Assembly (NCBI GenBank): GCA_935421135.1
Contig: OW285189.1
Span: 12,793,072 to 12,857,071, forward strand
Source of the DNA: Bugulina stolonifera
Lineage: Eukaryota; Bryozoa; Gymnolaemata; Cheilostomatida; Bugulidae
Reading direction: 5' to 3'
Length of the DNA stretch: 64,000 nt
Each line of letters opens with the position of its first letter. Position 1 is the stretch's first letter. Shown here in pieces: positions 2,873 through 30,300 of the stretch. Position numbers and translations under genes: made by a program. The notes under the pieces are model-generated. The model saw only the letters and a program-made list of their open reading frames with translations. It did not search any database and was not told the origin of the DNA.

Positions 2873-5698
2873 TTAGCAATTGTAATAATAGTAGATACAG
2901 CGACGCAAGTAATACACTCGGCCACCTACATAATATCTGAAAATATAACATCTGATGAGTCTGTAACACAGAGCTCTCTTGTTTCTGTTCTGGTTAACAG
3001 TATCCACTTCTGTGCCTGTAGAGAAATATATCACAGAGCAATTGAATATTATACAATACATGATACGTAATTCATATATCATAGCCTGTGTTCATACTGA
3101 ATTTATATATCATAGCCTGTGTTCACACTGAATTCATATATCGTAGCACATGGTCACACTGAATTCATACATGTATATCATAGTCCATGTTCATTTTCTG
3201 TGAACATAGATGCCTCAAACTGCTTCAAGGGTTCACCTCACAGACTATACGACATGCACTAGTGGACCAGATTTACCAAGATCTGAATCTGTTGCCACCC
3301 TTTAGCATTGCAATAGGAAGTCATCTTCTTATAGATAGAAAGCAATAAAATATTATTTCCATTCTTATATTTGCTTTTTAGAACCAGACAGTTTAGAATC
3401 TGTTATATGCGAGCTAGTCATCTCTGTGTAGAAACTTGGACTAAAAGTTAACCTTCTTACATGTAGATACAATATAATCTATATATCGAGTACATATGAC
3501 CCAGATTTGAAAATGTTGTGCTCCGCTTGCACCAACTTTCCCTTGGGAAGGTTTTTGTCATTATACATGTAAGTATACAATCTTATATTATAATGTGTAG
3601 CTTTACAATGTACTGTACATGTAAGCTCTGACTGTAAGTAATCCTAATGGACAAATAAATAAACACAATTGTTTGTTTATTTACCTTCCTTGGACTCTTC
3701 CTTGGGGGTAATCACCAACCATCTGAATCCATTCTTACATTCCTGGTGAGCACGTTCTGGGAAGAAACTTGTATCCTTTATCCAACCATCCAATATCTTA
3801 GCATTGACCTCTACATCATCCCCCTCGATCTCTCCACCATTAAAATTCTCAATGAAATTGGACACAACACTTTCATCATTTGTTCCGTTGTAGCTCACAG
3901 GGCTGACATAGCAGATTCCATCATCAGCTTTGGTAATATGCAGACCCTGAATATACATGCAATATAATATTATAGTGATAGTGTATAGGCCTACTTATAT
4001 AACATAATATATAACATATTATTTTATTTTATTATGCCTGCAAGAAATGTGTGACTGTGTCAGCTCGTACATCACGTTTGTTAGCCAGCAAATGAGTCAG
4101 TCAAGCTGTTTTTTCACATTGATTTCGAGTTTTTGAGATGGGAGTTCTAGACATGTGCTTGGTAAATTATATATTATTCCAAAATGTATGCAGTTGTTTC
4201 TTTTTCAACATCAAACCCAAACTTGCATGATGCCATTATATTAATGATAATATGCTAACCTTGTTGAAGTCATCCATGTCAAATGATCCGTCACTGTGGT
4301 GGTAGTAAGCAACATGTTGTCCTTTGTTGTAGTAGACTTTCTCTTCTACCTGGATACACAGAACATAACGACCAAATAATACCACTTGTATAATATTGTA
4401 TAATGTGTTTTTAGCAAGGAATTTATCTTTGAGCAGTCAGAGACTTATTTCAAATCCATGAAAATACCAGTCCGTGACTGGGGTTTGAACCCAGGCCTCT
4501 ACGGCACCTAATCACCCAGCACAGTGAACAGAACATGCTACCACTACACCAGCTATGAGCTGGTGTAGTGGTAGCATGCACATTATACAATATATAGAAA
4601 ATGGCCAAACCCCCTAACACTTGTATAATATATAATAATTAATATAGACATACAAATTTAATAAGACAATTTTGAAATTGGTTTGATAACCTGTCTCTAG
4701 GTAATTATACAGTATCTACATATATACAGTATCTACTATATATACAGTATCTACCATATACAGTATATATCTGTAATAATGTAATTATAATATACAATGT
4801 AGGGCCTATATATATTTATTCATATTATTCAAACAATTATAAATTATTTAAAAAAACAGGTTTATTTCTTATAGTGAATGATGTTTTGTTTAGCCTTGCT
4901 TTTTAGGAAACACAATACTTTATTTGTACAACTATCTCAAAACTTCCTGCAGTTTCTGACATGCACTGGGTTTAAACAAAGTAAGCAGTTATTAGATTGA
5001 ACAAAATAGCTTGTGTAAATATTAACAACAAACTACGATTAAATTAAATACTCTGATACCTTTCTGTTATCTGCAGTCTTTACATTAACTGTTGCCTCAA
5101 CATCTACCTCAGTAGGTTTCTTAGCTTGTTCTCCTTGACATGCAGCATGACCATTAACTACTGCCATGTAGATTAGTACTGACACAGACGCTGTCAGAAG
5201 AACTGACAAAACCAACAGAGAGACACCAACCAGTTTGGATTTGTGTTCCCCTCTTTCTCCCATCTACAAGTAATAATGAGCTATTTAAGATCCGGTTGCT
5301 GTGTTCCTATTGAAGAAGGCCGATTGTTCCGGCCAATCAATTAGCTGTCATTTGTTCAACCACTTATGCAAAGACCAGCATGCATGTTGGTCTTTTCAGT
5401 TCCAGCTGTTCTGATAGGTTAATATTACATGTACATGTAGATACAGCGACTCCAATCATATACTCTATTAGAAATCAGCTTTGGTTACTGACTGAATATT
5501 AATCAAGACCTTTACTGTTAATTCAAGAAGTATTTCTGCTTTGACCAAGATAGCAGTCAGTTACATGATTACATATTACTTTGCAAAAATTACCTAAATT
5601 GAAAACTTTAATACGATCCTCACAAGTTACTATAGTTAAATAAAATGATTATTTCTACCTACCTTGTCTTCAACAGATAGTTTTTCAGTAGAGCTCAT
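2873..5698 (-). CDS. BRICHOS-domain proprotein with C-terminal beta-hairpin peptide, copy 1 (5 exons)
   Basis: Exons on the minus strand: 5698-5663, 5263-5060, 4349-4260, 3946-3685 and 3015-2873, all GT-AG with consistent phases (0,0,0,1), giving 244 residues. Residues 1-22 are short and cytosolic. Residues 23-48 (LVGVSLLVLSVLL...) form a signal-anchor helix. Residues about 85-185 fit a BRICHOS domain, with the conserved Asp107 in DFNKGL, Cys122 in ICYVSP and Cys180 in QECKNGF. Exon 5 carries NQNRNKR, an R-x-K-R furin-type site, then 33 residues with Cys spacing C-x5-C-x16-C-x6-C, ten Tyr, six Arg, no acidic residue and VGGR at the centre. Known: BRICHOS proproteins are type II membrane proteins whose domain chaperones a beta-prone C-terminal peptide released by furin, and annelid antimicrobial peptides are made this way. 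Inferred: this is a secreted host-defence peptide. A promoter TATA box lies at 5,752. The peptide differs most from the other two copies. Confidence 0.85.
3068..3185. repeat. tandem repeat of about 36 bp in intron 4 of BRICHOS copy 1
   Basis: Three to four copies of a unit containing ATATATCATAGCCTGTGTTC and ending CACTGAATT. The same array, with about four copies, is in intron 4 of copy 2 (12,001-12,125). It is reduced and split by a transposon in copy 3. Confidence 0.75.
4397..4617 (-). mobile_element. tRNA-derived SINE in intron 2 of BRICHOS copy 1
   Basis: The insert is flanked by 14-bp direct repeats CACTTGTATAATAT (4383-4396 and 4618-4631). The matching site in copy 3 (about 29,290-29,305) has one copy of this sequence and no insert. 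The minus strand reads GGTGTAGTGGTAGCATG (A-box-like), then GGGTTCAAACCCC (B box), as in tRNA-headed SINEs. It arrived after copies 1 and 3 separated. Confidence 0.75.
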
Positions 5699-5751
5699 TG
5701 CAACCAACAGCCTCAACAGACAGTTATGATGAGAGAACCATTTAGTCTCTC

Positions 5752-5759
5752 CTTTTATA
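5752..5759 (-). promoter_or_regulatory. TATA box of BRICHOS copy 1
   Basis: TATAAAAG on the minus strand, 53-61 bp before the ATG, in the context TATAAAAGGAGA. The identical octamer lies at 54-61 bp in copies 2 and 3. A start site about 30 bp downstream would leave a 5' UTR of only about 25-30 nt. Confidence 0.7.
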
Positions 5760-6957
5760 CGCCTTTGAGAGTGATAACTCTCAATATATCTGGCATTGGT
5801 TGACATATTTATCTGAACCTCTTACTGATTGGGTTTATTTTTGGAACCGTCCATTTACAATGAATGCAGACCTACATATAATTAGGCAATCATGAAACCT
5901 ATATTTTTTTACTTTCAAAGAAGACAATTCAGATGTGAAATAATCCATAAAATGTTGATAGGGCAAATGATTTTTGCTTTGATATGTTGGCACAAAATAT
6001 GATAATAAGAATATAATTCACATACATTTGACGTTTTATGAGATTAAATGTCCCAGGCAAGTAACTGAGTAGATAGTAATACTATCTACATGGAACAAGT
6101 TGAGAAAGCAACTCCTGAGAAAAATAACATTTACAATGTTGTTGTGTATACATGTACACGTACATGTAGACAAGATTGGAACATTTCAGGGTAACAACTA
6201 GTGCATAAAATTAAGGTCATATTATACAATCATGCTAAAAAATACATTGTACAGGTACATGTACATGTAGTATGGTAGTACTTAGTGTAGTTGTGTGGCC
6301 TTATATTATACGCCAGGTTTGTAAGTCTGAGAGCATTATATTGTACCCATCTTATACCCAAATATTCAGGAGTTGTTCTCTCTCAATAATAGTATGCTAG
6401 AGTACTATCAATAGTGTGATTGGTTTTTGAAGAATTTTGTCAGATGCCGAACTAAATTAAGATCTCGTAGTTTTTTTCCGTATTTTGTGATAATATATAA
6501 TATTATCTTAACAACAATTTAAAATATGTATAATACTATTGTAAAACTTCAGTTTTATCTGTCCATGATAGGGAAATGAGATATAATAGCGTAAATCTAA
6601 ATCTAAAGATGCAGAGGAGTTGCTTTCTTGATTGAAGAAAGGCACAGCTGACTGATACTAGTGCGTGCCCTAAACTGCTCATTGAGAGTGATTACATTTA
6701 CTGAGCGACTGAGTTAATACTATAACTAGTAAATGTTCACGTACCAAGTTGGGAAAGCAACTGCTAAAACAAATCTCAAGAATATCTGTGTATAAGATAA
6801 GAGCAATATATAGTCCCTGGGTGACAACTCGCATATAATATAAACTTTGGATTACTGCTCTCTGTTACCTAACTTACATAGTGGCCGAGGACTCCGAAGG
6901 AGATAGCCTGCATGCCTCTCTATATAACTACTAGGAAGGGGCGGGCTCATTTCCCTC
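5760..6957. repeat. 5' flank of BRICHOS copy 1, duplicated at copy 3
   Basis: No coding exon is visible. The segment is almost identical to 30,362-31,576, including the text around AGGAAGGGGCGGGCTC, and the match stops abruptly after TTTCCCTCCCTAA. Copy 2 has only the first tens of bases in common. It carries the promoter region of copy 1. Confidence 0.75.
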
Positions 6958-7085
6958 CCTAACATTTACATTACAGTAATTCAACTGTTTCCTTATTTAT
7001 ACATACTTGTATTGTGCAATGATTGATAATTTTTGATTAACCGTGCGAACTGGTTGTGACTTACTTAATACTCTATGCATAACTT
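6958..7085 (+). mobile_element. LTR fragment
   Basis: The stretch from ACATTTACATTACAGTAATT to CTTGCCTTTTATACCTGTT matches the 5' part of the LTR at 20,854-21,509 (bases about 20,908-21,045). It is truncated on both sides. The following bases to about 7,490 match 22,115-22,500, which is unique flank of the minisatellite. Confidence 0.65.
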
Positions 7086-7614
7086 GCCTTTTATACCTGT
7101 TCTAATGCTGAATTATGCTTAAACATTAATTTTGGGACTTGAACAAATTTGTCCATAGTCCAAATTTGCTAAATATTTCTATTGCAAAATGCTCCAAGAT
7201 TAGCAAAGTCTTGAATCTTTCTTTCGTTAAACATTTCTGCTTTTAGGGTGATGTATTTTGAAAATGACAATGACTACACTAAATATATATATATATACGT
7301 ATGCAATATATTTAGAATCTAGATTACCAGTGTTTTCCCAGGGAACTGCCTGACAATACTCCCACCCCTACTGTAGGGTGCAGGAGGTTCTAAAGCTAAC
7401 CATAAATAGCCTCAGCACTCACAAACTAATGACTATGTAGAGTTGTCATCTCCAGACACTTTTTTGCAACACATAGTAACAGGAATCATCATATATGTTA
7501 TAATGTAGCGAATCCTTATTACAAGGGAGTTGTCTTCTCTTACCCCAAACCCCCAGCCACTATATTATTATATAGAAGTATTCTAGCACGTATTTAATAA
7601 CCTGTTAATCCTTG
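7086..7614. other. non-coding flank of the minisatellite
   Basis: Matches 22,115-22,500 closely, including a short TATATATA run near 7,282. No reading frame longer than noise and no RNA gene recognised. Confidence 0.6.
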
Positions 7615-8320
7615 CATGGTGATGGGAGTACAGTGGTTATGGGGGCACAGTGATTATGGGGGTACAGTGGTACAGTGGTTATGGGGGTACAGTGGTTATG
7701 GAGTACAGTAGTTATGGGGCACAGTGGTTATGGGGTACGGTAGTTATGGGGGCACAGTGGTGATGGGGGCACAGTGGTTATGGGGTACAGTGGTTATGGG
7801 GCACAGTGGTTATGGGGTACGGTGGTTATGGGGGCACAGTGGTTATGGGGCACTGTGGTTATGGGGGCACAGTGGTTATGGGGCACAGTGGTTACGGGGT
7901 ACAGTGGTTATGAGGTACGGTGGTTATGGGGGCACAGTGGTTATGGGGTACGGTGGTTATGGGGGCACAGTGGTTATGGGGGTACAGTGGTTATGGGGGT
8001 ACAGTGGTTATGGGGGTACAGTGGTTATGGGGCACAGTGGTTATGGGGTACAGTGGTTATGGGATACGGTGGTTATGGGGGCACAGTGGTTATGGGGTAC
8101 AGTGGTTATGGGGACACAGTGGTTATGGGGTACGGTGGTTATGGGGGCACAGTGGTTATGGGGTACGGTGGTTATGGGGGCACAGTGGTTATGGGGCACA
8201 GTGGTTATGGGGTACAGTGGTTATGGGGTACGGTGGTTATGGGGGCACAGTGGTTATGGGGTACGGTGGTTATGGGGGCACAGTGGTTATGGGGTACAGT
8301 GGTTATGGGGGCACAGTGGG
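7615..8320. repeat. G-rich 16/17-bp minisatellite, array 1
   Basis: About 42 units of GGTTATGGGGTACAGT and variants: GGGGCACAGT, GGGGGCACAGT, GGGGGTACAGT, TACGGT. Units of 16 and 17 bp alternate, so every frame of the plus strand stays open and yields YGG/WLWG-type nonsense. A second array lies at 22,550-23,568. The G-rich strand is always plus. Confidence 0.95.
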
Positions 8321-8897
8321 CAACTTGAAGTGCTTAATAGACTGCTACATGTATAACTACATATACCACTACATGTACATGGACAATTATACATGCATAT
8401 ACAATTACATATGTATATATTACTACTGAACACACACATGTACAGCTACATGTTGATGTGCAACTACATCTACCGCTACATACACAGCTACATAACACAT
8501 ATAATGTCAGCCATATCAGTAATATCTTATGGTGTAAATATATCAAGTTCACTAGAAGTCCTAACATGAGTAGGTGTATTTGCTGAACAAAACGCTCCGA
8601 TCTCCAGCACTCAACTAGAACATATGAATCCAATGATGACGAAATTATGTACAACTACAACTACTCTATGAAGCTAATGGAAAGTATTTGCTGAAGCAGC
8701 TGGAAAGTGCAGTGAGGACATAGACAGCAAATTGTCATGTGAAGCTAAGGAAGTCCCTTATAGCATAAAATTAACGCTAGTTTGACTATTATAGGCTATT
8801 CCCTTATCGCTGGGTATGGCATGAGAACAACTAAACACTTTACAGCTAAATTGTTATATAAGGCAAGGGAGACGATAATGGAACTTGTGCTGAACTG
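8321..8897. repeat. spacer between minisatellite and 14-bp satellite, duplicated at 23,569-24,112
   Basis: Begins with an ACTTGAAGTGCTTAATA tail and a run of CTACATGTA-like motifs, then 300 bp of low-complexity non-coding DNA. The homologous stretch at 23,569-24,112 differs by small indels. No gene seen. Confidence 0.65.
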
Positions 8898-9397
8898 TTG
8901 AGTCTAGGCTGTTGAGTCTAGGCTGTTGAGTCTAGGCTGTTGAGTCTAGGCTGTTGAGTCTAGGCTGTTGAGTCTAGGCTGTTGAGTCTAGGCTGTTGAG
9001 TCTAGGCTGTTGAGTCTAGGCTGTTGAGTCTAGGCTGTTGAGTCTAGGCTGTTGAGTCTAGGCTGTTGAGTCTAGGCTGTTGAGTCTAGGCTGTTGAGTC
9101 TAGGCTGTTGAGTCTAGGCTGTTGAGTCTAGGCTGTTGAGTCTAGGCTGTTGAGTCTAGGCTGTTGAGTCTAGGCTGTTGAGTCTAGGCTGTTGAGTCTA
9201 GGCTGTTGAGTCTAGGCTGTTGAGTCTAGGCTGTTGAGTCTAGGCTGTTGAGTCTAGGCTGTTGAGTCTAGGCTGTTGAGTCTAGGCTGTTGAGTCTAGG
9301 CTGTTGAGTCTAGGCTGTTGAGTCTAGGCTGTTGAGTCTAGGCTGTTGAGTCTAGGCTGTTGAGTCTAGGCTGTTGAGTCTAGGCTGTTGAGTTTAG
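8898..9397. repeat. near-perfect 14-bp satellite (about 36 copies)
   Basis: Unit TGTTGAGTCTAGGC repeated head to tail with essentially no variation for 500 bp, ending in a TTGAGTTTAGG variant. Only two to four diverged copies remain at 1-33 and 24,110-24,155. The homogeneity points to a recent expansion in this unit only. Confidence 0.95.
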
Positions 9398-9671
9398 GTA
9401 ATAATAATGCTATTCAAGAGGGAAATGAGGATAGTACTGCTCCTACTGATACTCTGATACTTCGACCGTTACTATTTTCCTGCCGTTACCATCATCTGCT
9501 AACACTGAGAATACCAAACATAGGTCCTGTATTACTTTACTCTAATTGATCTCTGATCTCATCTTTGACTGTATTGTATGTATAGTAAGTTAAATGAGAG
9601 CTAAAGGATTAAGTATAATATTACATAAACATATTATTGTTATGACCTATACAGATATGACATTATACCGC

Positions 9672-10069
9672 ATTGATTGCTTATTGATTGCTTATTGATT
9701 GCTTATTGATTGCTTATTGATTGCTTATTGATTGCTTATTGATTGCTTATTGATTGCTTATTGATTGCTTATTGATTGCTTATTGATTGCTTATTGATTG
9801 CTTATTGACTGCTTATTGACTGTTTATTGACTGCTTATTGACTGCTTATTGACTGCTTATTGACTGCTTATTGACTGCTTATTGACTGCTTATTGACTGC
9901 TTATTGACTGCTTATTGATTGCTTATTGATTGCTTATTGATTGCTTATTGATTGCTTATTGATTGCTTATTGATTGCTTATTGATTGCTTATTGATTGCT
10001 TATTGATTGCTTATTGATTGCTTATTGATTGCTTATTGATTGCTTATTGATTGCTTATTGATTGCTTAG
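9672..10069. repeat. 11-bp satellite (about 36 copies) with a variant block
   Basis: Unit TTGATTGCTTA repeated head to tail. A central block of ten units (about 9,807-9,910) reads TTGACTGCTTA, one of them with TGTTTATTG. The matching place in the third unit (about 24,445-24,470) holds only one to two copies, so this array also expanded locally. Confidence 0.95.
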
Positions 10070-10239
10070 TCGTGGCTCACATACATGTAAGTATGGTGTT
10101 AACATTGGTATGTTTTGTATGATTTCTGCTCTACTACATGGCTTGTACTTCCCTAATGTCTTGGCAGTCACACTTATTTACAGTGTTAGTCATTCCTGGG
10201 ACTACCTACTGTGCTTTGGATGTGATTATGCCATTTCCT

Positions 10240-10379
10240 CATGGGCACTAATATGCTATTGATCATAATTAGAAGTTGTCCTCTCCCTATTTATCTTCCT
10301 CTTCCAGAAAAAAAGAAGAGGAAGATAAATTGGGAGAGGACAACTTCTAATTATGATCAATAGCTTATTAGTGCCCATG
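10240..10379. mobile_element. fold-back (inverted repeat) element, 140 bp
   Basis: Arms beginning CATGGGCACTAATA and ending in the reverse complement TATTAGTGCCCATG pair over about 65 bp around an AAAAAAA loop. They include GAAGTTGTCCTCTCCC and its complement. A single arm of the same element occurs at 17,338-17,410 and degraded arms near 1,608 and 25,005. It has no coding capacity. Confidence 0.8.
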
Positions 10380-11189
10380 CTTTTCCTCCTTGATTATCCT
10401 AGTCCTTTTGTACAGACAGTGGGACAAATTTGGAATCGCAATAGAGAGTTCAAAGCATTCCTACATACAGAATACTAGAGCACATAAAAACATTAACTTG
10501 TTCTCTAGTCGATTTTATGCCAACTTAGCGATATCCCAAAACTTACAAAATGTCAAAAAGCAGTCCACCGTGCCCCCCCCCCCCCCCAATATCCCTATTA
10601 TACTCCATACCTCTTCTATACTCTGTGCCTCTACTACACTTCATACCACTACTATGGAGTGTGGACTGAGGCTATGGGCTGTGCAATCCAGGATGAACTT
10701 TCTTGTATGTTTGTAGTACATGTACACGTGGACCTACTTGGCACAGACCTGTCTAGTTACAGTTTAGGTGCAGTATATTAGAATGTAGAGGGCTACACTC
10801 AGTGCTAGTGGTAACTACACTTGTACAATGTATTGATTGAATTCAATTGGCCAGCTAACAGCTGCAGATGTCGGTGACCTCTCCGAGGCACCAGGCTTGA
10901 GGGCTAATGCTTGAAAATAAATACTATAACAATATAATTGGGTGAACTTCAGTCAATATTAGGCAGTACGTAATATATAGCGTACATTGCATTGTGCATG
11001 CAGGTTGAATTGGCAGCTTGAGAACTCTGGTTCAGTGTTTTTCACACCTTTTAGATATGCTTTGCTGTAAGTATAGAGTATTGCTAAGGTGTGCTCCTAG
11101 GTATATCTCTGAGCTGTACTGATGAGGTGTCAAACACCCAAACAGTACACTGTATGCAAATTGAGTAATATTTTCTATAAAGTTATAAT
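10380..11189. other. non-coding flank of BRICHOS copy 2
   Basis: Contains a run of 15 C at 10,573-10,587. From about 10,735 it holds a shortened copy of the shared flank (compare 1,690-2,250). The frame at 10,390-10,716 has no recognisable domain and crosses the C run. No gene called. Confidence 0.55.
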
Positions 11190-11807
11190 TGCGGTTCAGT
11201 GGTTAACTTGTTGATTTTTAGACCATAGAGTCACAGGTTCAAATCTCATGCCCTCCTGTTGTGGAAGGTGAGCTTATGTAAAACAGGAAGGCTAATTGGC
11301 AGTAATGCAGAAAATATGCCTAGTATCTCAGACAGTATGTACTGAGCAAGTAATACAATTATTATAATGTATAACATGTTATAACATTAATTGTTTGATG
11401 AATGTTGCTTTATTATTAAATGAAAGGAAAACAGAAATGTTGTATCATAAGTATGGGTAAGGAAAAGTACAATTTAGTGGTTGTGGAAATAGAAAAGCTC
11501 AGCACATGGTACATTTACATGTGTGATAATTTGTATTAGTCCTGTAACTGCATTCAATAGCTGAAGTACATGTTATATTATATTATAATATACAATGTAT
11601 ATTGTAAGCTGACAATGAGACGATATTTTTTAATACAAGAATTGCAAACATTCTTGTATAAATATGGAAAGTGATGTTACAAAGATCATTATTATTTTAT
11701 AAGAGAAATTCTGTAACTGTTAGTCTAGGCTGTGTAATTATACAAAACTCACTCAGTAGTTGATATTCTACATCTTTGTGAGCTACATAATCTCAATCCA
11801 AACAGAC

Positions 11808-14800
11808 TTAGCAATAGTAACTATACCGGTAGCAGAAGTACCGGTAGTACAATCGGCCACCTATGTAATAGTATCTGATATAACATCTGTATCTGTAACA
11901 CAGAGTAGCTCTCTTGTCTCTGTTCTGGTTAACAGTATCCACATCTGTCTCTGTGGGGAAATATAACACAGAACAGTTGTATATTACATGTATATAATAC
12001 ATAATTCATATATCATAGCCTGTGTTCACACTGAATTTATATATCATAGCCTGTGTTCACACTGAATTTATATATTATAGCCTGTGTTCACACTGAATTT
12101 ATATATCATAGCCTGTGTTCATGCTGAATCGTTACTGTTGATGTTCACAGACTTTTTATGAAAATTGATGCCTCAAACTACCTCTAGAATTTACCAAGAT
12201 TTGACTCTGAATCATTTTCTTAAAGATAAAACACTAGAATATTATTTACATTCTATTTTAGTTTTTATTCAAAAACCAACAGCTTAAACTTTGTTATATT
12301 TTTGAGCTACTAACTAGAGTTTAGTTACATAGATCTCAGTGCAGAAACCTGTAGATACAATCCTTTCTATAAAACTAAACTTTTGATATGTTTAGCACAG
12401 ATGGCCCAGAGTTGTAAAAATTATTCTCAGTTTGCACCGACTTTCCCCTGGGACAACTTTTTTCATCGTAATTATACAACCATATGTGCATGTAGCTCTA
12501 CATTCTGATGAAAAATAGGCTATCCTGCAATTTATGCAGATGTAAGTAATCCTAATGGACAAATAAATAAACACAATTATTTGTTTTATGTACCTTCCCT
12601 GGACTCTCCCTTGGGGGTAATCACCAACCATCTGAATCCATTCTTACACTCCTGGTGAGCACGTTCTGGGAAGAAACTTGTATCCTTTATCCAACCATCC
12701 AATACCTTAGCACTGACCTCCACATCATCTCTCTCGATCTCTCCACCATCAAAATTCTCAATGAAATTGGACACAACACTTTCATCATTTGTTCCATCGA
12801 AGCTCATAGGGCTGACATAGCAGATTCCATCTTCAGCTTTGGTAATATGCAGACCCTGGATATGCATGTAATATAATATTATTACTTTTATAATACATGT
12901 AGTATAATTATATTATTAGTGATAGTGTATACTTATATACCTGTAGTGTAATAATTATTATTAGTGATATTGTATACTTTTATAATACATGTAATATAAT
13001 ATTATTAGTGATAGTGTATACTTTTGTAATACATGTAATATAACATTATTAGTGAAAGTGTATACTTATATAATACATGTAATATAATATTATTAGTGAT
13101 AGCGTATACTTATATAATACATGTAATATAATATTATTAGTGATAGTGTATACCTTATATAATACATGCGACATATTATTTCAACCTTTATAAAGTTTAT
13201 ATGTTTATTGCGTTCTTATACATCACATCTGTCAGCCAGCTAACAAGTCATTCAGTCAGCCAAGCAATTTGTTCTCATAGACTTTGACCTTTTTAAATGC
13301 CAGTTCTAAACAGGGTTGTTAATAATAATGTGCTAACCTTATTGAAGTCATCCATATCAAATGATCCGTCACTGTGGTGGTAGTAGGCAACATGTTGTCC
13401 CTTGTTGTAGTACACTTTCTCTTCCTCCTGGATATACAGAACATAAAGGCCAAATACAACTTATATAGTATTATGTGATAGGAACATATAAATTTAATAA
13501 GATAATTTCAAAATCGGTTTTATAACCCCGTCTAGATAGTCTGTTATGCTAAACATATTTACTGTAATTATTTATATGTATTTATATTGATGTGATTAAA
13601 ATAATAAATTATTCTAAAAAACCAATTTATTTCTTGTAGCAGACGTTGCTCCGAATTGCCTTACTATTTAGCAAAGGGATGTTTTGGTTGTTTGTATAAC
13701 TATTTCAAAACTCTCTGCTGTTTGTATCATGCGCTGGGATCAAACATAGTTCAAAGCAGTTAATAATAATAACATGTGTATAAATATTAATAACAAATTA
13801 ATATAATACCTTCTCATCTTTATCTGCAGTCTTAACATTGACTGTTGCCTCAACATCTACCTCCGTTGGTTTCTTAGCTTGTTCTCCTTCACAGGCAGCA
13901 TGACCATTAACTACTGTCATGTAGATCAGTACTGACACAGACACTGTCAGAAGAACTGATAAAACCAATAGAGAAACACCAACCAGTCTGGATTTGTGTT
14001 CTCCTCTCTCTCCCATCTACAAGTAGTGACAATTACTCACTGTCAGGTTGAAATGTATTCTATTTTAAAGTTGGACTGTACTGAAAATTTCAGAATATTT
14101 TTCACCAAATTGACTGTGTTAGTATTACTTGATACCTCTACAAGCATACCTAAATTATTTCAGTAGTAGCTAATAGATGCTAAACTGCAAAAAAGTAGCC
14201 CCGAAGTTTCTAAAATACCCATGGTGATGTCAGCATTAGGAGTTATCTCCACTTAGTTTTATGTCAATTCTCAAAACTTTCTCTTCAATTATCTCAGCTC
14301 TGACACACTATATAGCAGCAACATTGAGTTATCACAACTGCTTTATAAGCAATACAGTGTTCATTCAATAAAACAGATATTAGCAATGATAGTACTACAT
14401 ACTACAGGTTCAACACACCAGTCTAGTGAGCAGGCATGTTGTTCATTAGATTAACAAGTAGCCTATATTGACGAATAAAATTGCAAACTCAAAAATCATT
14501 AGATAATTTTTTGCAACAAATTTTGAATTTTATTGTCTAGGAATATTAATTAGCATTCGTCCTACATGCCAATTTTTTGTGATGTTCCTAGTATAACAAG
14601 GATAAAAACCCAATTAAAATCTTCTGTTTATAATAACATAATGCGTGGTCTGGCATTCACTCCCTGCAATGGTGTAATTCACTAGTTTTAACAGAGCTGA
14701 GACCCATCATGACATCATGTAGCCCAGCTGATATTGTGCTAACTGGTTCAGCTGCTACTAGGCTTCCTAATGGTGTATTCAGCTTATAACCTTAAAACTT

Positions 14801-15051
14801 CAGTACAGTTCACCTGTTCTAATATTTCTTACTCATTTATAGTCTATCAGACCTTCAAAATTAAATAAGCAATAGTTTCAGAAGCTTGGAACTGGTGAGT
14901 GGAGTGTACACTGTATGTATGTACTGAATGTAAGCTTTTAAATGAACTGTTAATTCATCATAGGTCAATTAAAAAGACATAAATTAACTTTAAAGATTAT
15001 CTACTGTCTTACCTTGATGTCTTCAATAGATAGTTTCTCAGTAGAGCTCAT
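11808..15051 (-). CDS. BRICHOS-domain proprotein with C-terminal beta-hairpin peptide, copy 2 (5 exons)
   Basis: Exons on the minus strand: 15051-15013, 14016-13810, 13427-13338, 12855-12594 and 11950-11808, with the same splice phases as copy 1, giving 246 residues. The layout is the same: cytosolic 1-23, membrane helix about 24-49, BRICHOS in exons 3-4 (DFNKGL, ICYVSP, QECKNGF). The cleavage site is NQNRDKR (R-x-K-R). The 33-residue peptide has C-x4-C-x16-C-x6-C, thirteen Tyr, six Arg and no acidic residue. Its inner two Cys (peptide positions 9 and 26) are placed exactly symmetrically about the Gly-Gly at 17-18. Exon 1 has one extra codon (Ile) and exon 2 ends in DKDEK instead of DNRK, so its N-terminal half is the most diverged of the three. 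Function as a furin-released host-defence peptide is inferred from the family. The TATA box is at 15,105. Confidence 0.85.
12001..12125. repeat. tandem repeat of about 36 bp in intron 4 of BRICHOS copy 2
   Basis: Four units containing TATATCATAGCCTGTGTTCA and CACTGAATTT, orthologous to the array at 3,068-3,185. Confidence 0.75.
12880..13170. repeat. tandem repeat of about 55-60 bp in intron 3 of BRICHOS copy 2
   Basis: About five units of AATACATGTAATATAATATT followed by ATTAGTGATAGTGTATACTT. Copy 3 has only about two units (28,870-28,965) and copy 1 a remnant. The expansion is specific to copy 2. Confidence 0.8.
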
Positions 15052-15104: not shown

Positions 15105-15112
15105 CTTTTATA
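15105..15112 (-). promoter_or_regulatory. TATA box of BRICHOS copy 2
   Basis: TATAAAAG on the minus strand 54-61 bp before the ATG, in the same TATAAAAGGAGA context as copies 1 and 3. Upstream of it the sequence no longer resembles the other two copies. Confidence 0.7.
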
Positions 15113-15570: not shown

Positions 15571-15837
15571 GACGTTTGGTTTCGGTTGACACTCTTGTCA
15601 CCAGATAACGATATTTGGAAACGCTCCTTTGATAAAGAATACAGCAAAATTCTCTAATCATGCCTTCCTTTTTCCACTTCCCTAAAGAATGAAGAATATG
15701 GACTCTTCCATGATCGAATTTCGAAAACGTGGATATAGTGAACACACTGTACTGTATCTACTGTTCCGGTATGTCGAATGAAAATACAGCAGAAAATAGA
15801 GCATAATTTTCAATTTTCACCAATATTAGCCCTATTA

Positions 15838-16490
15838 ACGAAAAAGGACGAGTATTCAACAACAGAGATTTTTTTCAAAGAACGAAGCCTAAAGTCTACG
15901 GAGCAGTTGTCTTACCTACTCTTTCGTTTGGCTCTGAGACATGGACGACTTACAGTCGACATATCAAAGTTCTCGAGCGATTCCATCAGAGGTCACTGAG
16001 AAGAATACTTGGAGTAAGCCGGCAGGCAAAGCGTACAAACAACAGCATCTTGGATGAAGCAGATACAACCAGCACTGAAGCTATGGTTATTTGAAACCGA
16101 ATGAGATGGGCAGGACATGTAACCCGAATGGCCGATACCCGCCTTCCGAAACAAATATTTTACTCCGAACTCAAAGATGGAGATGGTGGGCAGTGCAAGA
16201 GATTTAAAGACAATCTCAGGAATGACCTGAAGAGATGTTTTATCAGAACTGAGACATGGGAGAACAGAGTCCAAGACCGACAGAGCTGGAGAGCATGCGT
16301 CCACGAAGGCAAAAACATTTTTGAACAGTGAAGAAAGGAACACAGAGAGGACGTACGGGCAGCAAAAAAGTTCAGGGAATCATCCTCGATTAATAATATC
16401 AGTTTCGTCTGTACTCACTGTCGGAAAGTGTGCCTTTCAAGGATTGGACTCTCAAACCATATGAGAACTCATAAAACCCAGAACAAATAG
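15838..16490 (+). pseudogene. 3' end of a non-LTR (LINE) retrotransposon ORF2
   Basis: One frame reads GAVVLPTLSFGSETW, then SLRRILGVSRQAKRTNNS, then, after a stop, MRWAGHVTRMADTRLPK and KDNLRNDLKRCFIRTETWE. It ends in a C2H2-type finger, CTHCRKVCLSRIGLSNH. This order (post-RT region with LRRILG, RWAGHV.RM, C-terminal CxxC-H-H finger) is typical of C-terminal ends of RTE/CR1-like LINE ORF2 proteins. In-frame stops after ...TEAMVI and ...NIFEQ show it is dead. It is 5'-truncated and joins the LTR fragment directly. Confidence 0.8.
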
Positions 16491-16517
16491 ACATCTTACT
16501 CGTACTATCGAGGGATT

Positions 16518-16562
16518 GCCAAGAGTGGGAGTGGGAGAGTGGGAGTGGGAGTGGGAGAGAGA
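16518..16562 (+). repeat. GGGAGT simple repeat
   Basis: Runs of GGGAGT and GAGA at the 3' edge of the LINE fragment. Confidence 0.8.
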
Positions 16563-16589
16563 GTTGGAAAAAATTTTTTTCATAAACTC

Positions 16590-16710
16590 AAATGGTAAAA
16601 TTGTATCAAAAGCTTGGCTAAAATCTAAAAATGTTACCAATACAGAATTGCCATTATTAATTTCTTCTAAGGTTTTGTCTGCAAATTTTACTGAGAGAAG
16701 AGATTTGTAC
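16590..16710 (-). pseudogene. reverse transcriptase fragment of another LINE
   Basis: The minus strand reads FADKTLEEINNGN followed by SVLVTFLDFSQAFDTI. FLDFSQAFDTI is the first catalytic-aspartate motif of non-LTR reverse transcriptases. Only about 40 residues survive. Confidence 0.65.
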
Positions 16711-16764
16711 TTCCAGTAAAACCACATTTCCATTGCCTTAGTAGGGCATTAGTAGCCAGTGTCC

Positions 16765-20220: not shown

Positions 20221-20222
20221 TT

Positions 20223-21928: not shown

Positions 21929-21931
21929 TTA

Positions 21932-22549
21932 GTAGTTGGACATTAAAAAAAGCAGCAAGTATATTAGCCGTAACATAATTGGTAAGTACAGTGTAGCATA
22001 GAGGATTTTTGAACAAGCTATGATAATTACTCCCCCTACAGATGAGCTTACTGAGCTATAAAGAAATCAGCTGCAGTTTTGTATGTACTGTAGGTAAACA
22101 TACAGCTTAGCTAACCTTGTTTCTAATGCTGAATATGCTTAAACATTAATTTTGGGACTTAAACAAATTTCTCGTAGGCCAAATTTGCCAAATATTTCTA
22201 TTGCAAAATGCTCCAAGATTAGCAAAGTCTTAAAACTTTCTTTCGTTAAACATTTCTGCTTTTAGGGTAATGTATTTTGAAAATGACAATGACTACACTA
22301 AATATATATATATACATGTAGGTATGCAGTGTATTTAGAATTTAGATTACCAGTGTTTTTCCAGGGAACTGCTTGACAGTAATCCCATCCCTACTGTAGG
22401 GTGCAGGAGGTTCTAAAGCTAACCATAAATAGCCTCAGCACTCACAAACTAATGACTATGTAGAGTTGTCATCTCCAGACACTTTTTGCAACACATAGTG
22501 ATAAAGGCTCGGCTATACAAGAGGCTGATTGTTCGTTTGCTATGGTAGT
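21932..22549. other. non-coding flank of the second minisatellite
   Basis: From about 22,115 it matches 7,090-7,490, the corresponding flank of the first minisatellite. GGCTCGGCTATACAAGAGGC at about 22,505 is another piece of the dispersed repeat at 17,076. No gene seen. Confidence 0.55.
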
Positions 22550-23568
22550 ACAGTGGTTATAGGGGCACAGTGGTTATGGGGTACGGTGGTTATGGGGGCA
22601 CAGTGGTTATGGGGTACAGTGGTTATGGGGTACAGTGGTTATGGGGGTACAGTGGTTATGGGGGTACAGTAGTTATGAGACACAGTGGTTATGGGGTACA
22701 GTGGTTATGGGGTACAGTGGTTATGGGGTACAGTGGTTATGGGGGTACAGTAGTTATGAGACACAGTGGTTATGGGGGCACAGTGGTTATGGGGGCACAG
22801 TGGTTATGGGGTACAGTGGTTATGGGGTACAGCGGTTATGGGGTACAGTGGTTATGGGGTACAGTGGTTATGGGGACACAGTGGTTATGAGGTACGGTAG
22901 TTATGGGGCACAGTGGTTATGGGGTACGGTGGTTATGGGGGTACAGTAGTTATGAGACACAGTGGTTATGGGGGCACAGTGGTTATGGAGGTACAGTGGT
23001 TATGGGGTACAGTGGTTATGGGGGTACAGTGGTTATGGGGGCACAGTGGTTATGGGGTACAGTGGTTATGGGGCACAGTGGTTATGGGGGCACAGTGGTT
23101 ATGGGGGTACAGTGGTTATGGGGTACAGTGGTTATGGGGACACAGTGGTTATGGGGTACGGTAGTTATGGGGCACAGTGGTTATGGGGTACGGTGGTTAT
23201 GGGGGTACAGTAGTTATGAGACACAGTGGTTATGGGGCACAGTGGTTATGGGGTACGGTGGTTATGGGGTACAGTGGTTATGGGGGTACAGTGGTTATGG
23301 GGGCACAGTGGTTATGGGGTACGGTGGTTATGGGGGTACAGTAGTTATGGGGGTACAGTGGTTATGGGGTACAGTGGTTATGGGGGCACGGTGGTTATGG
23401 GGTACGGTGGTTATGGGGGCACAGTGGTTATGGGGTACAGTGGTTATGGGGGTACAGTGGTTATGGGGTACAGTGGTTATGAGGTACAGTGGTTATGGGG
23501 TACAGTGGTTATGGGGTACTGGGGTACGGTGGTTATGGGGTACAGTGGTTATGGGGGTACAGTGGGCC
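22550..23568. repeat. G-rich 16/17-bp minisatellite, array 2
   Basis: About 60 units of the same family as 7,615-8,320. Here some units read GTACAGTAGTTATGAGACAC and recur every few hundred bases, giving a higher-order pattern that array 1 lacks. Each array therefore grew independently after the duplication. The long open frames are a by-product of 16/17-bp units. Confidence 0.95.
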
Positions 23569-25843
23569 ACTTGAAGTGCTTAATAAACTGCTACATGTAT
23601 AACTACATATACCACTACATGTACATGGACAATTATACATGCATGTACAACTACATATGTATATATTACTACTGAACACACACATGTACAGCTACATGTT
23701 GATGTGCAACTACATCTACCGCTACATATACAGCTACATAACACATGCCAGCCGTATCAGTAACATCCCACAGTATAAATATATCAAGTTAACAGTAAAA
23801 GTCTTAACATGAGTAGGTGTATTTGCTGAACAAAACCCTATGATCTCCAGCACTCAACTAGAACATATGAACCCAATAATGACGAAATTATGTACAACTA
23901 CAACTACTCTATGAGGCTAATGGAAAGTATTTGGTGAAGCAGCTGGCAAGTGCAGTGTAGACAGCAAGTTGTCATGTGAAGCTAAGGAAGTCCCTTATAG
24001 CATAAAATTGACGCTAGTTTGACTATTATAGCATGGCATGAGAACAATTAAACAGCTATTGTTACATAAGGCAAGGGAGACGATAATGGAACTTGTGCTA
24101 AACTTTTGAGTTTGGGCTGCTGGGTTTAGGCTGCTGGGTTTAGGCTGTTGAGTTTAGGTAATAATAAACTATTCAAGAGAGAACTGAGGAGAGTACTGCT
24201 CCTACTGATAAGCCGATACTTCTGCCGATACTTCTGCCGTTACTATATTCCTGCTGTTACTATATTCCTGCCGTTGCCATCATCTGCTAACACTGAGAAT
24301 ACCAAACATAGGTCCTGTATTTCTTTACTCCATTGATCTCTGATCTCATCTTTGACTGTATTGTATGTATAGATAATGAGAGCTAAAGGTTTAACTATAA
24401 TTACATAAATATTGTATTGACCTGTACCGATACGACATTATACCGCATTATTGCTTATTGATTGCTTAGTCATGCCGCTTACATACATGTAAGTATGGTG
24501 TTAACATTGGTATGTGTAGAAATAAAGGCCTATATGAAATGCACAAAACACAGATCTGGAATTGTTATTCAATTTTTTCTATACATGACATGTAAATAAA
24601 TAGATGTACATGTAGGTATCTGTTCGGTTGGTTGTTTGCCTAAAGAGAGAAATTGACGCACTTCAAAGTTTTCAGACAAAGTCCCTCATTCTCAAAGCAA
24701 TATTATGCCAGTAATTTTACCTAATGATTCATTAGTAAGATCAAACACTCACTAAAATACATACATGTGAATTATGTGAATTTTGGTGAAGTGGATGTCC
24801 TCTGTTGATTGGGCAAAAACATCAAAAAATTTGAGTGATAAAATATTTGAACAAAATAATATTTTCGTTTGTTGAAATACTTGTCTAACATTAAACTGTA
24901 ATTAGTTGGCAGTGATTACAATCATAATGGCATTTATAGACTGTTATTCAACAATTAATTGTACAAATAAATAAGGGTAATAGCCTAAGTGACTCTTGAG
25001 AGAGGGCAACTTCTAGTTATTACCCATAGCCCATAAGTGCCCAACTACCCATGCTTGTACCACATGTACATGTAGGCCTACTTGGCACAGACCTGTCTAG
25101 TTACAGTTTAGGTGCAGTATATTAAAATGTAAAGGGCTACACTCAGTGCTAGTGGTAACTACACTTGTACAATGTATTGATTTAATTCAATTGGCCAGCT
25201 AACGGCTGTAGATTTTGGTAGCCTCCACAGGACCTCAGCCCTCAGGCACCAGGTTTAAGGGCTAATGCTTGAAAATGCTGTAAATACTATAACAATAGTC
25301 TATATAATTAGGTGAACTTCAGTCAATATTATGTAGGTGGTATGTAATAATGTACATTGCATTGTGCATGCAGATTGAATTGTTGTACAACAGAAATATA
25401 TAATATAATATATTACCCTTTAAATTGGTAGCAATACCAATTTCTAGGGCACTCTACTGGGAGATACACTGAACTGCTAACCTTGTGCAATTCTTGCTGT
25501 CACTGGCAGCTTGAGAACTCTGGTTCAGTGTTTTTCCAACCTTTTAGATATGCTTTGCTGTAAGTATAGAGTATTGCCAAGGTGTGCTCCTAGGTATATC
25601 TCTGAGCTGTGCTGCTGAGGTGTCAAACACCCAAACAGTACACTGTATGCAAATTGAGTAATATTTTCTATAAAGTTATAATTGCGGTTCAGTGGTTAAC
25701 TTGTGGATTTTTAGACCATAGAGTCACAGGTGCAAATCGCATGCCCATGCCCTCCTGTTGTAAAACAGGAGGGCTAATGTTGGCAGTAATGCAGCAAATA
25801 TGCCTAATGTTTCAGACAGTACTATGTACTGAACAGGTAATAC
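23569..25843. repeat. duplicated spacer and 3' flank of BRICHOS copy 3
   Basis: Same order as unit 1: minisatellite tail, spacer, 14-bp satellite remnant (24,110-24,155), 11-bp satellite remnant (24,445-24,470), then the shared flank (24,665-25,670) with the tRNA-like segment (25,680-25,745). The undisturbed target of the LTR at 95 lies at about 24,205-24,220. No gene seen. Confidence 0.7.
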
Positions 25844-26650
25844 TGTGATGGTACAGGACATTTGTATACGACTCCAACTCCCGGACGAAGCTCCATCGCA
25901 CCTTAAGTGCCTAGTAGTTGTTACAGCGCTACTCATCTGACACTAACATTCTCATAATTAGTGTTCGTATACTTACCTTCAACTGCATTGCATGTTCAAA
26001 CCACTTAATTACCGTCTATATACGTGTCTCCATGTGTTTATACTCATTACTTATTCATGTATCTTACTCCTGTATTGTTGTATATAGTTGCATGATTATA
26101 TCTAAGTCTTTTAATGCCTTTTATACCCATGTACAGAGGCCCGACCTCTCAGAATCCATTGATATTCATTTTGTACATGAATTGGACCATTATAAGCAAC
26201 TTTTGTAGAACCCGACCTATTTTGGGTCGGCCGTTGGGCTTCCGGCGGCCATCTTGTTGCGCAACTTCCGGACGACCACACGTCGTCTTTTCCCGACGTC
26301 ACGTCGGCCGGAAGTCCTTATACTATATAAAGGGCATTGTTTTACTGTTCATTATCTCAGTCTACACTTGGCTTTCAATAAAGACACATCTATACTTGAT
26401 ACAGAGACTTTCACTTCCTTTTGCCAGGTCATTCGCTTAGCGAACTGCCTACTAGGTCGGATCACTCTCTTTCATTGTATAGTCTGAAGGTCGGACTTGA
26501 GATCAGATGGGTCGTCTTTGGTAGTATTTGGGCTACTGAGACCGCTCGATCTTTCATGTAATGCGAAGTCCTATTACCACTCATAGGCACTTCATTTCTG
26601 GGTCGATAGTCGTCCAAGGACGACCGCACCAAAACACAGAAACCATTACA
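25844..26650 (+). mobile_element. solo LTR, second copy (807 bp)
   Basis: Starts TGTGATGG and ends CCATTACA, an imperfect inverted terminus, flanked by ATAC (25,840-25,843 and 26,651-26,654). The empty site is seen in copy 1 (GTAATACTATT near 2,450) and copy 2 (near 11,350). TATATAAAGGGC lies at about 26,324-26,335 and AATAAA at 26,378-26,383. CG-rich words such as CGGCCGGAAG occur in U3. It lies about 0.5 kb beyond the stop of BRICHOS copy 3. Confidence 0.9.
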
Positions 26651-27120
26651 ATACTACTACTATAATGTATAACATGTTATAACATTAATTGTTTGATGAT
26701 TGTATATTGCTTTATTATTAAATGAAAGGAAAACAGAAATGTTGTATCTTAAGTATGGGTAAGGAAAAGCACAGCATAGTAGTTGTGGAAATAGAAGATC
26801 TCTGCACATGGTACATTTACATGTGTAATAATTTGTAATAATATAGTTCTGTAACTGCATTCAATAGCTGAAGTTTGTGTTGTATTATATTATATAATAA
26901 TATTATTATTGTTAGCTGGCAATAAAAATAATGATGTTATATTATAATATACATGTATTAAAAGCATACACATTATTATACATGTAATATTACAAAGATC
27001 ATTATAATTATATAAGAAAAATGCTGTAACTGTTAGTCTAGGCTGTGTAATTATACAAAACTCACTCCGTAGTTGATATTCTACATCCTTGTGAGTTACA
27101 TAATCTCAATCCAAACAGAT

Positions 27121-30100
27121 TTAGCAATAGTAAATATACCGGTAGCAGACGTACCGGTAGTACAATCGGCCACCTATGTAATAGTATCTGATAAAACATC
27201 TGTATCTGTAACACAGAGTAGCTCTCTTGTCTCTATTCTGGTTAACAGTATCCACATCTGTAGTTCCTGTAAGGAAATATAACACAGAACACAGTTATAT
27301 ATTATATAATACATAATTCATATATCATTGCCCATAGAGGTGGAACGAGACTCGAGATTTCTCGAGTCTCGTATCGACTTGCCTTGTCTCGAAAGTCGTC
27401 TCGAGATGGTAATTAGTATTCGAGACTGGAGAACAAATAGCAACTAATAATATTTATTCATAATAAATTAATAATTATAATAAAATTAATTGCTAATCAA
27501 CAATAAATCTATCAAATAGAAAATTATTATTCAAATTATTTAGTAATACTACCTACATGTACATCCCCAGCACTGATTTTCTAGTAATAACATTGCAGCT
27601 AACGCTGAGCTACTAGTCGATCACTACAAGTCATACAGAATTACTAACGACTGTCAATCACCACTCCCACATGCAATGTTATGTACTTACCAAAAGTTGT
27701 CTACTCATGAGATTATTTCATTAAAGGAAACTTAACTCCATACTAATTTGTCAAATTACATTATTATTTTAGTGCCCATGTACATGCAATGTAATGCACA
27801 TGGAATACATAAGCAATATATTTCACACCTTTTATTGAAGTGCATAATGATAAAATACAGAGTTTACAGAGTAGCAATTGAAACTATTGGAGTTCAAACA
27901 TGCAGATATATAAAATTTGGCAAACCTTTTAGGAAAATTCACTTGAAACCTAAAACCCAGTCTCGTCTCGTCTCGAATTTTTTAGAAGTGGTGTCTCGAA
28001 TCTCGTCTCGAAACCAAAAATGCTGTCTCGTTCCACCTCTAATTGCCCATATTCACACTGAATCTATACTTATATCATAGCTCATATTTACACTGAATTG
28101 TCACTGTAAATGTTCACAGGCTTTTTTGTGAAAGTAGATGCCTCAAGCTGCTTCAAGGGTTCACCTCACTAACTGTATACGACATGCACTAGTGGACCAG
28201 ATTTACCAAGATTTGAATCTGTTGCCACCTTTAGCATTGCAATAAGAAGTCATATTCTTATAGATAGAAAGCAATAAGATATTATTTTCATTTTTATTTC
28301 TGCTTTGTAGAACCAGACAGTTTAAAATCTGTTATATACTAGCTAATCGTCTCTGTGTAGAAACTTGGACTAAAAGTTAACCTTCTTACATGTAGATACA
28401 ATATATTCTATATATCGAGTACATATGACCCAGATTTGAAAAAAAGTTGTCCTCGTCAGCTTGTACCAACTTTCCCCTGGGATAACCTTTGTCATTATAT
28501 GCATACAACCTTATACATTTGCATAGCTCTAAGTTCTATCTACATGTAAGTAACTAAACAAATAAATAAACACAATTATTTGTTTATTTACCTTCTTTGG
28601 ACTCTCCCTTGGGGGTAATCACCAACCATCTAAATCCATTCTTACACTCCTGGTGAGCACGTTCTGGGAAGAAACTTGTATCCTTTATCCAACCATCCAA
28701 TACCTTAGCATTGACCTCTACATCATCTCTCTCGATCTCTCCACCATCAAAATTCTCAATGAAATTGGACACAACACTTTCATCATTTGTTCCGTTGTAG
28801 CTCATAGGGCTGACATAGCAGATTCCATCATCAGCTTTTGTAATATGCAGACCCTGGATATACATATAGTATAATATTATTAGTGATAAGTGGATGCTTT
28901 TATAATGCATGTAGTATAATTATATCATTAGTGATAGTGTATACTTATATAATACACGCGACATATTATTTTAACCTTTATAAAGTTTATATGTTTATTG
29001 CGTTCTTATACATCGCATCTGTCAGCCAGCTAACAAGTCATTCAGTCAGCCAAGCAATTTGTTTTCATAGATTTTGACGTTATTAAGTGCCAGTTCTATA
29101 AACGGGTGCTTGATAAAAGTGCGCTCTTGTTTGTTTTTCAACCTCAGAACTCATGGTATGTGCTAACCTTATTGAAGTCATCCATATCAAATGATCCGTC
29201 ACTGTGGTGGTAGTAAGCAACATGTTGTCCCTTGTTGTAGTACACTTTCTCTTCTACCTGGATATACAGAACATAACGACCAAATAATACCACTTGTATA
29301 ATATGTAATATGTACACATGAATTTAATAAGACAATTTTGAAATCGGTTTGTTAATTTGTCTCGAAAATTATACAGCTATGTTAAACATACCTGTAATAA
29401 TGTAATTATAATATACATATATTTATCCATATTATTCAAACAATTATGTATTGTTTTAAAAATACAGGTTTATTTCTTATAGTGGATGATGTTCTATTTA
29501 GCCTTGCTTTTTAGTAAACACAATACTTCATCTGTGCAACTATCTCAAAACTTCCTGCAGTTTCTGACATGCACTGGGTTTAAGCAAAGTAAGCAGTTAT
29601 TAGATTGAACAAAATAAGATGTGTAAATATTAACAGCAAACTACGATTAAATTAAATACTCAGATACCTTTCTGTTATCTGCAGTCTTTACATTAACTGT
29701 TGCCTCAACATCTACCTCAGTAGGTTTTTTAGCTTGTTCTCCTTGACAGGCAGCATGACCATTAACTACTGCCATGTAGATCAGTACTGACACAGACGCT
29801 GTCAGAAGAACTGATAAAACCAATAGAGAAACACCAACCAGTTTGGATTTGTGTTCCCCTCTTTCTCCCATCTACAAGTAATAATGAGCTATTTAACATC
29901 GGGTTGCTGTGTTCCTATTAAAGGAGGTCGATTGTTCCGGCCAATCAATTAGCTGTCATTTGTTTAACCACTTATGCAAAGACCAGCATGTTGGTCTTTT
30001 CAGTCCCAGCTGTTCTGATAGGTTAATATTACATGTACATGTAGATACAGGACTCCAATCATATTCTCTATTAGAAATCAGCTTTGTTTATTGACTGGAT

Positions 30101-30300
30101 ATTAATCAAGACCTTTACTGTTGATTCAAGAAGTATTTCTGCTTTGACCAAGATAGCAGTCAGTTACATGATTACATATTACTTTGCAAAAATTACCTAA
30201 ATTGAAAACTCTAATACTTTCCTCACAAGTTACCATAGTTAAATAAAATGATTATTTCACCTACCTTGTCTTCAACAGATAGTTTTTCAGTAGAGCTCAT
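27121..30300 (-). CDS. BRICHOS-domain proprotein with C-terminal beta-hairpin peptide, copy 3 (5 exons)
   Basis: Exons on the minus strand: 30300-30265, 29871-29668, 29257-29168, 28853-28592 and 27266-27121, with the same phases as the other copies, giving 245 residues. Exon 2 (membrane helix and linker) is identical in protein to copy 1. The BRICHOS motifs DFNKGL, ICYVSP and QECKNGF are intact. Exon 5 has one extra Thr codon before the pro-region, the R-x-K-R site NRDKR, and a peptide with C-x4-C-x16-C-x6-C, twelve Tyr and six Arg. It differs from copy 2 at only three peptide positions (Tyr/Phe, Phe/Val, Ser/Ile). So the front of the gene follows copy 1 and the peptide end follows copy 2. 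A hAT-type MITE sits in intron 4 without touching the splice sites. The TATA box is at 30,354. Confidence 0.85.
27335..28041. mobile_element. non-autonomous hAT-type transposon in intron 4 of BRICHOS copy 3 (707 bp)
   Basis: Terminal inverted repeats TAGAGGTGGAACGAG / CTCGTTCCACCTCTA flanked by an exact 8-bp duplication ATTGCCCA (27,327-27,334 and 28,042-28,049). An 8-bp duplication with a (C/T)AGAGGTGG-like end is diagnostic of hAT elements. Subterminal regions are full of TCTCGTCTCGA repeats, as expected for transposase binding sites. There is no transposase. Copies 1 and 2 lack it. Confidence 0.9.

Follow-up and report, generated by a model that had tools for sequence, protein, structure and literature searches.

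Candidate BRICHOS-type precursors of tyrosine- and arginine-rich four-cysteine peptides in the bryozoan Bugulina stolonifera

Three genes lie on the minus strand of a 64,000-nucleotide stretch of the Bugulina stolonifera genome (assembly GCA_935421135.1, contig OW285189.1, positions 12,793,072 to 12,857,071; hereafter the window), and each appears to encode a precursor in which a BRICHOS-type prodomain is followed by a tyrosine (Tyr)- and arginine (Arg)-rich peptide. The three genes are real. Each has five exons in the common splice phases 0,0,0,1, with AG before and GT after the intron-facing edges; 14 of the 15 exons were placed by script, the remaining one being exon 1 of copy 2, which is followed by gtaaga and is one codon longer than its counterparts in copies 1 and 3. 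A TATAAAA box starts 61 bases upstream of the ATG in all three (Table 1). The joined proteins (244, 246 and 245 amino acids for copies 1, 2 and 3) run from a short N-terminal stretch through a hydrophobic anchor and an acidic region (net charge -11, -17 and -11, respectively) to an R-x-K-R site and a 33-residue tail. Each is predicted to be a type II membrane protein; in copy 1, a mean hydropathy of 2.42 across the 19-residue hydrophobic window of the anchor, together with the modelled hairpin tail described below, fits a type II or secreted proprotein whose C-terminal region is beta-prone. The original prediction, which had been made from the sequence of the window, held that there were five-exon genes with identical phases, a signal anchor, the BRICHOS residues Asp107, Cys122 and Cys180 in copy 1 and an R-x-K-R site (at residue 208 in copy 1), and all of these were found where claimed.

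Table 1. Positions of the gene features in the window and of three related genes on contig C9.
Feature	Location	Strand	Remark
Copy 1 exon 1	5663..5698	-	MSSTEKLSVEDK
Copy 1 TATAAAA box	5753..5759	-	begins 61 bases before ATG
Copy 1 exon 2	5060..5263	-	putative type II membrane anchor
Copy 1 exon 3	4260..4349	-	start of BRICHOS-type domain, Asp107
Copy 1 exon 4	3685..3946	-	BRICHOS-type domain, Cys122 and Cys180
Copy 1 exon 5	2873..3015	-	R-N-K-R site and mature peptide
Copy 1 mature peptide	2876..2974	-	ALCYRLIRCYIFRYYVGGRVYYLRRCIYYYYNC
Copy 2 exon 1	15013..15051	-	MSSTEKLSIEDIK
Copy 2 TATAAAA box	15106..15112	-	
Copy 2 exon 2	13810..14016	-	putative type II membrane anchor
Copy 2 exon 3	13338..13427	-	
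Copy 2 exon 4	12594..12855	-	BRICHOS-type domain
Copy 2 exon 5	11808..11950	-	R-D-K-R site and mature peptide
Copy 2 mature peptide	11811..11909	-	ATLCYRYRCYIRYYYIGGRLYYRYFCYRYSYYC
Copy 3 exon 1	30265..30300	-	
Copy 3 TATAAAA box	30355..30361	-	
Copy 3 exon 2	29668..29871	-	putative type II membrane anchor
Copy 3 exon 3	29168..29257	-	
Copy 3 exon 4	28592..28853	-	BRICHOS-type domain
Copy 3 exon 5	27121..27266	-	R-D-K-R site and mature peptide
Copy 3 mature peptide	27124..27222	-	ATLCYRYRCFIRYYYIGGRLYYRYVCYRYIYYC, modelled as beta-hairpin
Three near-identical R-R-R-R genes	C9:8688794-8690217, 8765046-8766159, 8895410-8896523	-	tail exons further downstream

As had been predicted, the final exon of every window copy encodes a 33-residue peptide with six Arg, four cysteines (Cys) and no acidic residue; it contains 10, 13 and 12 Tyr in copies 1, 2 and 3, and it also lacks lysine. 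Two more genes stand in tandem with these just before the window on the same contig (C3), with tails of R-N-K-R and a 34-residue four-Cys peptide in one and R-E-K-R and a 45-residue four-Cys peptide in the other. In all five the R-x-K-R site directly precedes a cationic tail (mature net charge +4 to +6) that follows the pattern C-X4/5-C-X16-19-C-X6-C and has at its middle a turn of Gly-Gly, Asn-Gly or Thr-Gly. AlphaFold2, given a three-sequence alignment of the window peptides, modelled a hairpin with strands at residues 3-16 and 19-32 (predicted local distance difference test score 92.3, predicted template modelling score 0.37). In each window copy the positions of the second and third Cys add up to 35, which places their midpoint at Gly17-Gly18; those of the first and fourth add up to 36 or 37, so that the outer pair would require a bulge or a loose end. 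A profile of the peptides found no match at an expectation value (E) of 10 or below among solved-structure sequences of at least 20 residues.

BRICHOS membership of the prodomain is likely but remote, with a similarity at the limit of detection. When nine members were compared with 24,736 Pfam families (E <= 10), BRICHOS (PF04089, curated cut-off 25 bits) was matched by four and one other family by a single member. The best member reached E 0.00064, and the family consensus, for which BRICHOS was the only Pfam match, E 0.0013, both below the curated cut-off; exons 3-4 of copy 3 scored 15.2 bits, the gene at 15.0 Mb (megabases) on contig C9 19.1 bits and the consensus 19.4 bits. These matches cover positions 10-86 (copy 3) and 7-85 (consensus) of the 91 in the profile. 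The family alignment holds nine of the 13 places described below and omits both C3 genes that precede the window (exon 4 of one contains an N stretch), C9:14995632, which breaks off, and C9:8895, which duplicates the exon 3-4 protein of C9:8765. The conserved Asp is present in all eight rows that contain exon 3, and both Cys in all nine. According to the accounts cited, the Asp and two Cys define the BRICHOS family (PMC10182729) and the Asp is present in 97% of single BRICHOS domains (PMC9627735). ITM2B was the best solved-structure match of the family profile, and the motifs D-F-N-K-x-L and C-Y-V-x-P align with it over the exon 3-4 join. The predicted model of exon 4 runs strand-strand-helix-strand-helix-strand, an order that presumably fits the BRICHOS fold, in which two helices flank a central beta-sheet and the Cys pair ties helix 2 to that sheet. 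A different explanation is that the prodomain has an unrelated fold that matches BRICHOS by chance, as every score lies under the Pfam cut-off, copy 1 gave no Pfam match at E <= 1, a structural look-up of the exon 4 model ranked other folds first and a single-sequence search of solved structures found no BRICHOS. We consider this very improbable in view of the preference for BRICHOS across the Pfam comparison, the extent of profile coverage, the motifs aligned with ITM2B and the invariance of the three defining residues, and the genes are very probably BRICHOS-type peptide precursors. The predicted assignment stands in this form, with Pfam support that stays below the cut-off even for the best joined member. 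It had also been claimed that single-frame searches miss the peptide, as it lies on a separate small exon; joining of exons is indeed needed, but it is not sufficient, since the joined proteins remain below the Pfam cut-off and a single protein database search with joined copy 3 gave no match at E <= 10.

A single exon 4 query against the whole assembly (27 contigs, 235 Mb in total) returned 14 matches at E <= 10, and queries with exon 4 of two distant members returned 13 and 14; these counts are lower bounds, and the three queries together mark at least 13 family places. The three copies of the original prediction are not the limit of the family, which extends to the two further C3 genes and to eight related genes or remnants on contig C9 (three at 14.99-15.00 Mb and five at 8.69-9.06 Mb). 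Contig C2 holds one fragment that adjoins an N stretch and one chance-level match (E 4.83). The five C9 genes at 8.69-9.06 Mb retain the exon 2-5 plan, tail-exon phases having been checked in four of them, and begin by eye with signal-peptide-like segments. Their tails differ. That of C9:9055 reads E-E-G-E-E-K-K and then a 37-residue peptide of net charge +8 with an amphipathic stretch (hydrophobic moment 0.58, reached by 1.25% of 2000 shuffles); the last exon of C9:9049 (C9:9047445-9049977, plus strand) encodes an acidic amphipathic stretch, net charge -5, with two Cys nearby; and in three near-identical genes, among them C9:8895 and C9:8765 with identical exon 3-4 proteins, the tail is R-R-R-R and a 21-residue hydrophobic segment. 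Helices in the C9 tails are judged from hydrophobic moment. In the three BRICHOS-type genes at C9:14986732-15003148 no tail exon was found, and at C9:14995632 the exon 4 match ends early. With cationic, acidic and hydrophobic tails on these relatives, one prodomain family therefore appears to serve unlike clients. Between the window genes lie minisatellites with units of 33/16, 14 and 11 bases (7617-8319, 8895-9398, 9672-10068 and 22548-23565), of which the 33-base family is present twice and may mark duplication units.

The prodomain and the tail evolve differently. In four of the five C3 genes, exon 1 excluded, the ratio of non-synonymous to synonymous substitution rates (dN/dS) for the prodomain was 0.10-0.26 at 90-96% identity (six pairs), and for the mature peptide 0.52-1.35 at 55-62% identity (the five pairs where it is defined). 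The mature peptides of copies 2 and 3 are 91% identical, with three differences, all non-synonymous; this pair, lacking synonymous change in the mature part, was excluded from the Fisher tests of prodomain against mature part, which on rounded counts gave p of 0.00025, 0.00018, 0.16, 0.0078 and 0.019 for the other five, non-independent pairs. As judged from these ratios, the prodomain is under purifying selection. When 30 random changes were made to the copy 1 peptide in 20,000 simulations, 0.035% retained all four Cys without a stop or an acidic residue; this result and the purifying selection on the prodomain place the observed genes beyond chance. Host-defence peptides usually show this combination of a conserved carrier and a rapidly changing tail. 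A competing possibility is that the genes encode ITM2- or chondromodulin-like membrane proteins whose cut tail signals, or remains attached, and has no antimicrobial action of its own. A type II anchor, BRICHOS domain and basic cleavage site are common to ITM2 proteins, ITM2B heads the solved-structure matches and some C9 payloads are acidic or hydrophobic; a signalling tail, however, is expected to be conserved, yet here the tail is the fastest-evolving part, in a tandem cluster, and its net charge ranges from +4 to +6 across all five genes on C3. We think this explanation unlikely. We give about the same small weight to the proposal that tails so rich in Tyr, Arg and Cys have a structural or adhesive role, in cuticle, cement or a cross-linked coating, with BRICHOS as chaperone of an aggregation-prone building block. 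The peptide is exceptionally rich in Tyr (10-13 of its 33 residues), and long strands with so much Tyr tend to assemble; most structural proteins, however, are larger and built of repeats, whereas this peptide is short, keeps its four-Cys scaffold while diverging fast in sequence, lacks acidic residues in every window copy and has a cationic amphipathic counterpart in the sister gene C9:9055. It is in favour of the structural proposal that BRICHOS clients are generally described as aggregation-prone (PMC10182729).

We propose instead, with a probability of roughly 0.7, that the family encodes BRICHOS-chaperoned, convertase-released, secreted beta-hairpin host-defence peptides. The precursor would enter the secretory pathway as a type II membrane protein, and its acidic BRICHOS-type prodomain, which carries a net charge of -11 to -17, would serve there as a built-in chaperone that prevents the sticky Tyr/Arg-rich tail from aggregating. 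Under this chaperoning two disulfides would form, Cys1-Cys4 and Cys2-Cys3, about the turn dipeptide described above; a furin-type convertase would cut after R-x-K-R, and the freed cationic hairpin would attack microbial membranes. The earlier suggestion of a host-defence or secreted-peptide system is retained together with the gene models and the BRICHOS assignment, with peptide release a predicted step and antimicrobial action of the mature peptides somewhat less probable than the reading as a whole. Several points weigh against our proposal. To the results for copy 1, the structural look-up and the single-sequence search given above is added the acidic payload of C9:9049, which does not fit a cationic antimicrobial peptide. 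Toxins and recognition peptides also combine a conserved carrier with a fast-changing tail. Moreover, synonymous divergence is itself raised in the mature part (0.30-0.51 against 0.12-0.22 in the prodomain), so gene conversion in the prodomain, or the alignment, may account for part of the contrast in dN/dS.

If the host-defence proposal is right, the same precursor logic, with different payloads in a bryozoan, would either date its origin back to an ancestor of both phyla or mean that BRICHOS was recruited twice as chaperone of aggregation-prone defence peptides, and peptide antibiotics would gain a new scaffold in the long Tyr/Arg hairpins. A more tentative idea, to which we give rather less than even odds, is that BRICHOS is an old general carrier of exchangeable weapon peptides in lophotrochozoans and not an annelid invention, one prodomain family with a fixed exon plan delivering, in this bryozoan, hairpins, cationic or acidic helices and hydrophobic segments from a swappable last exon; the long Tyr/Arg hairpins would be a new class, and their 14-residue strands could cross a membrane and, assembled, form pores. 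The gene cluster offers a natural system for studying how a chaperone domain tolerates changing clients, and it yields a search rule: locate the prodomain of exons 3-4, which is constant, and then inspect the following exon. The reviews cited place BRICHOS antimicrobial peptides in annelids, one of 2022 only in polychaetes (PMC9756803). Neither that review nor three of 2025 and 2026 contain the word stem 'bryozo', and as the bryozoan BRICHOS literature was not searchable we make no claim of priority.

Elsewhere in the assembly, contig C27 (14,440 bases) looks mitochondrial, with a COX1 frame that contains in-frame TGA. This frame has AGR codons at several known Ser positions and ATA at known Met positions, as in the invertebrate code. 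Open frames resembling nad6, nad3, nad2, cox2 and cob were seen by eye on one strand in the approximately 5.5 kilobases read. In Bugula neritina nad3, nad2, cox2, trnC, trnS2 and cob lie on the same strand, in an order called quite different from other metazoans in the passages cited; the order nad3-nad2-cox2-cob and the strand match on C27, whereas B. neritina has nad6 elsewhere, adjoining cox1 (PMC2678162). Judged by code and gene order, C27 most likely comes from a bryozoan, probably a cheilostome, and not from an annelid; a sponge origin, considered at first, was rejected on the same two grounds. The annelid erythrocruorin linker family gave no match, but neither did its controls, so this negative carries no weight. 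COX1-like stretches with in-frame TGA also occur at C26:34375-36051 and C12:7199-8926, either nuclear copies or a second mitochondrial sequence, and the cob frame at C27:2501-3700 shifts near base 600 of the locus, through an assembly error or a real frameshift. In the window itself, positions 34451-40768 (minus strand) hold an acidic, Ser/Asp-rich open frame of 2105 residues with no Pfam match at E <= 1. Ser/Ala/Thr-rich repeats fill 53047-64000, with units that include 78, 216, 264 and 480 bases and long open plus-strand stretches; a mucin-like protein or a coding minisatellite is a candidate explanation. Short frames at 16452-16748 (minus) and 15807-16331 (plus) resemble, by eye, reverse-transcriptase remnants.

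Among known systems, the arthropod tachyplesins, polyphemusins and gomesin are rich in Arg and aromatic residues and about half as long as the bryozoan hairpins; their precursors are not known to contain a BRICHOS domain. They belong to the same class of disulfide-pinned hairpins (PMC13001179). The bryozoan proteins share with ITM2B/Bri2 and proSP-C a membrane-anchored BRICHOS-type organization with conserved Asp and Cys pair, and with ITM2B the two motifs described above, but differ from both in a tail that is predicted to be a cationic four-Cys hairpin, is tandemly duplicated and evolves fast; the R-R-R-R and 21-residue hydrophobic segment of the three C9 genes loosely recalls the hydrophobic client of proSP-C. 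Cathelicidins likewise join one conserved prodomain to very different antimicrobial payloads, an analogy drawn in PMC6265681 and an analogy only, the prodomains being unrelated. The closest parallel is with the annelid BRICHOS peptides, namely arenicin, alvinellacin, capitellacin, abarenicin, UuBRI-21 and HfBRI-25 and the helical nicomicin and HfBRI-28, which in the accounts cited have the same architecture: a hydrophobic segment at the N terminus, an acidic BRICHOS proregion, a cut of dibasic or furin type and a cationic peptide at the C terminus. Their payloads include helices as well as hairpins with one or two disulfides, and their precursors, as appears to be the case here, come in membrane-anchored and signal-peptide forms (PMC9410094, PMC10745061, PMC6265681). 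Unlike payloads on annelid precursors have also been reported (PMC6265681, PMC10745061). Compared by description, the annelid hairpins with lengths given in the accounts cited have 20-25 residues, whereas those of C3 have 33-34, and 45 in one gene, are very Tyr-rich and follow C-X4/5-C-X16-19-C-X6-C. The original prediction that the peptide is longer than those known therefore holds against these annelid hairpins, but not against annelid BRICHOS tails overall, which range from 18 to 91 residues within one worm (PMC10745061). The precursor logic is thus already known from annelids, and what the bryozoan genes would add is a host in a second phylum, Bryozoa, and a longer Tyr/Arg-rich, four-Cys hairpin.

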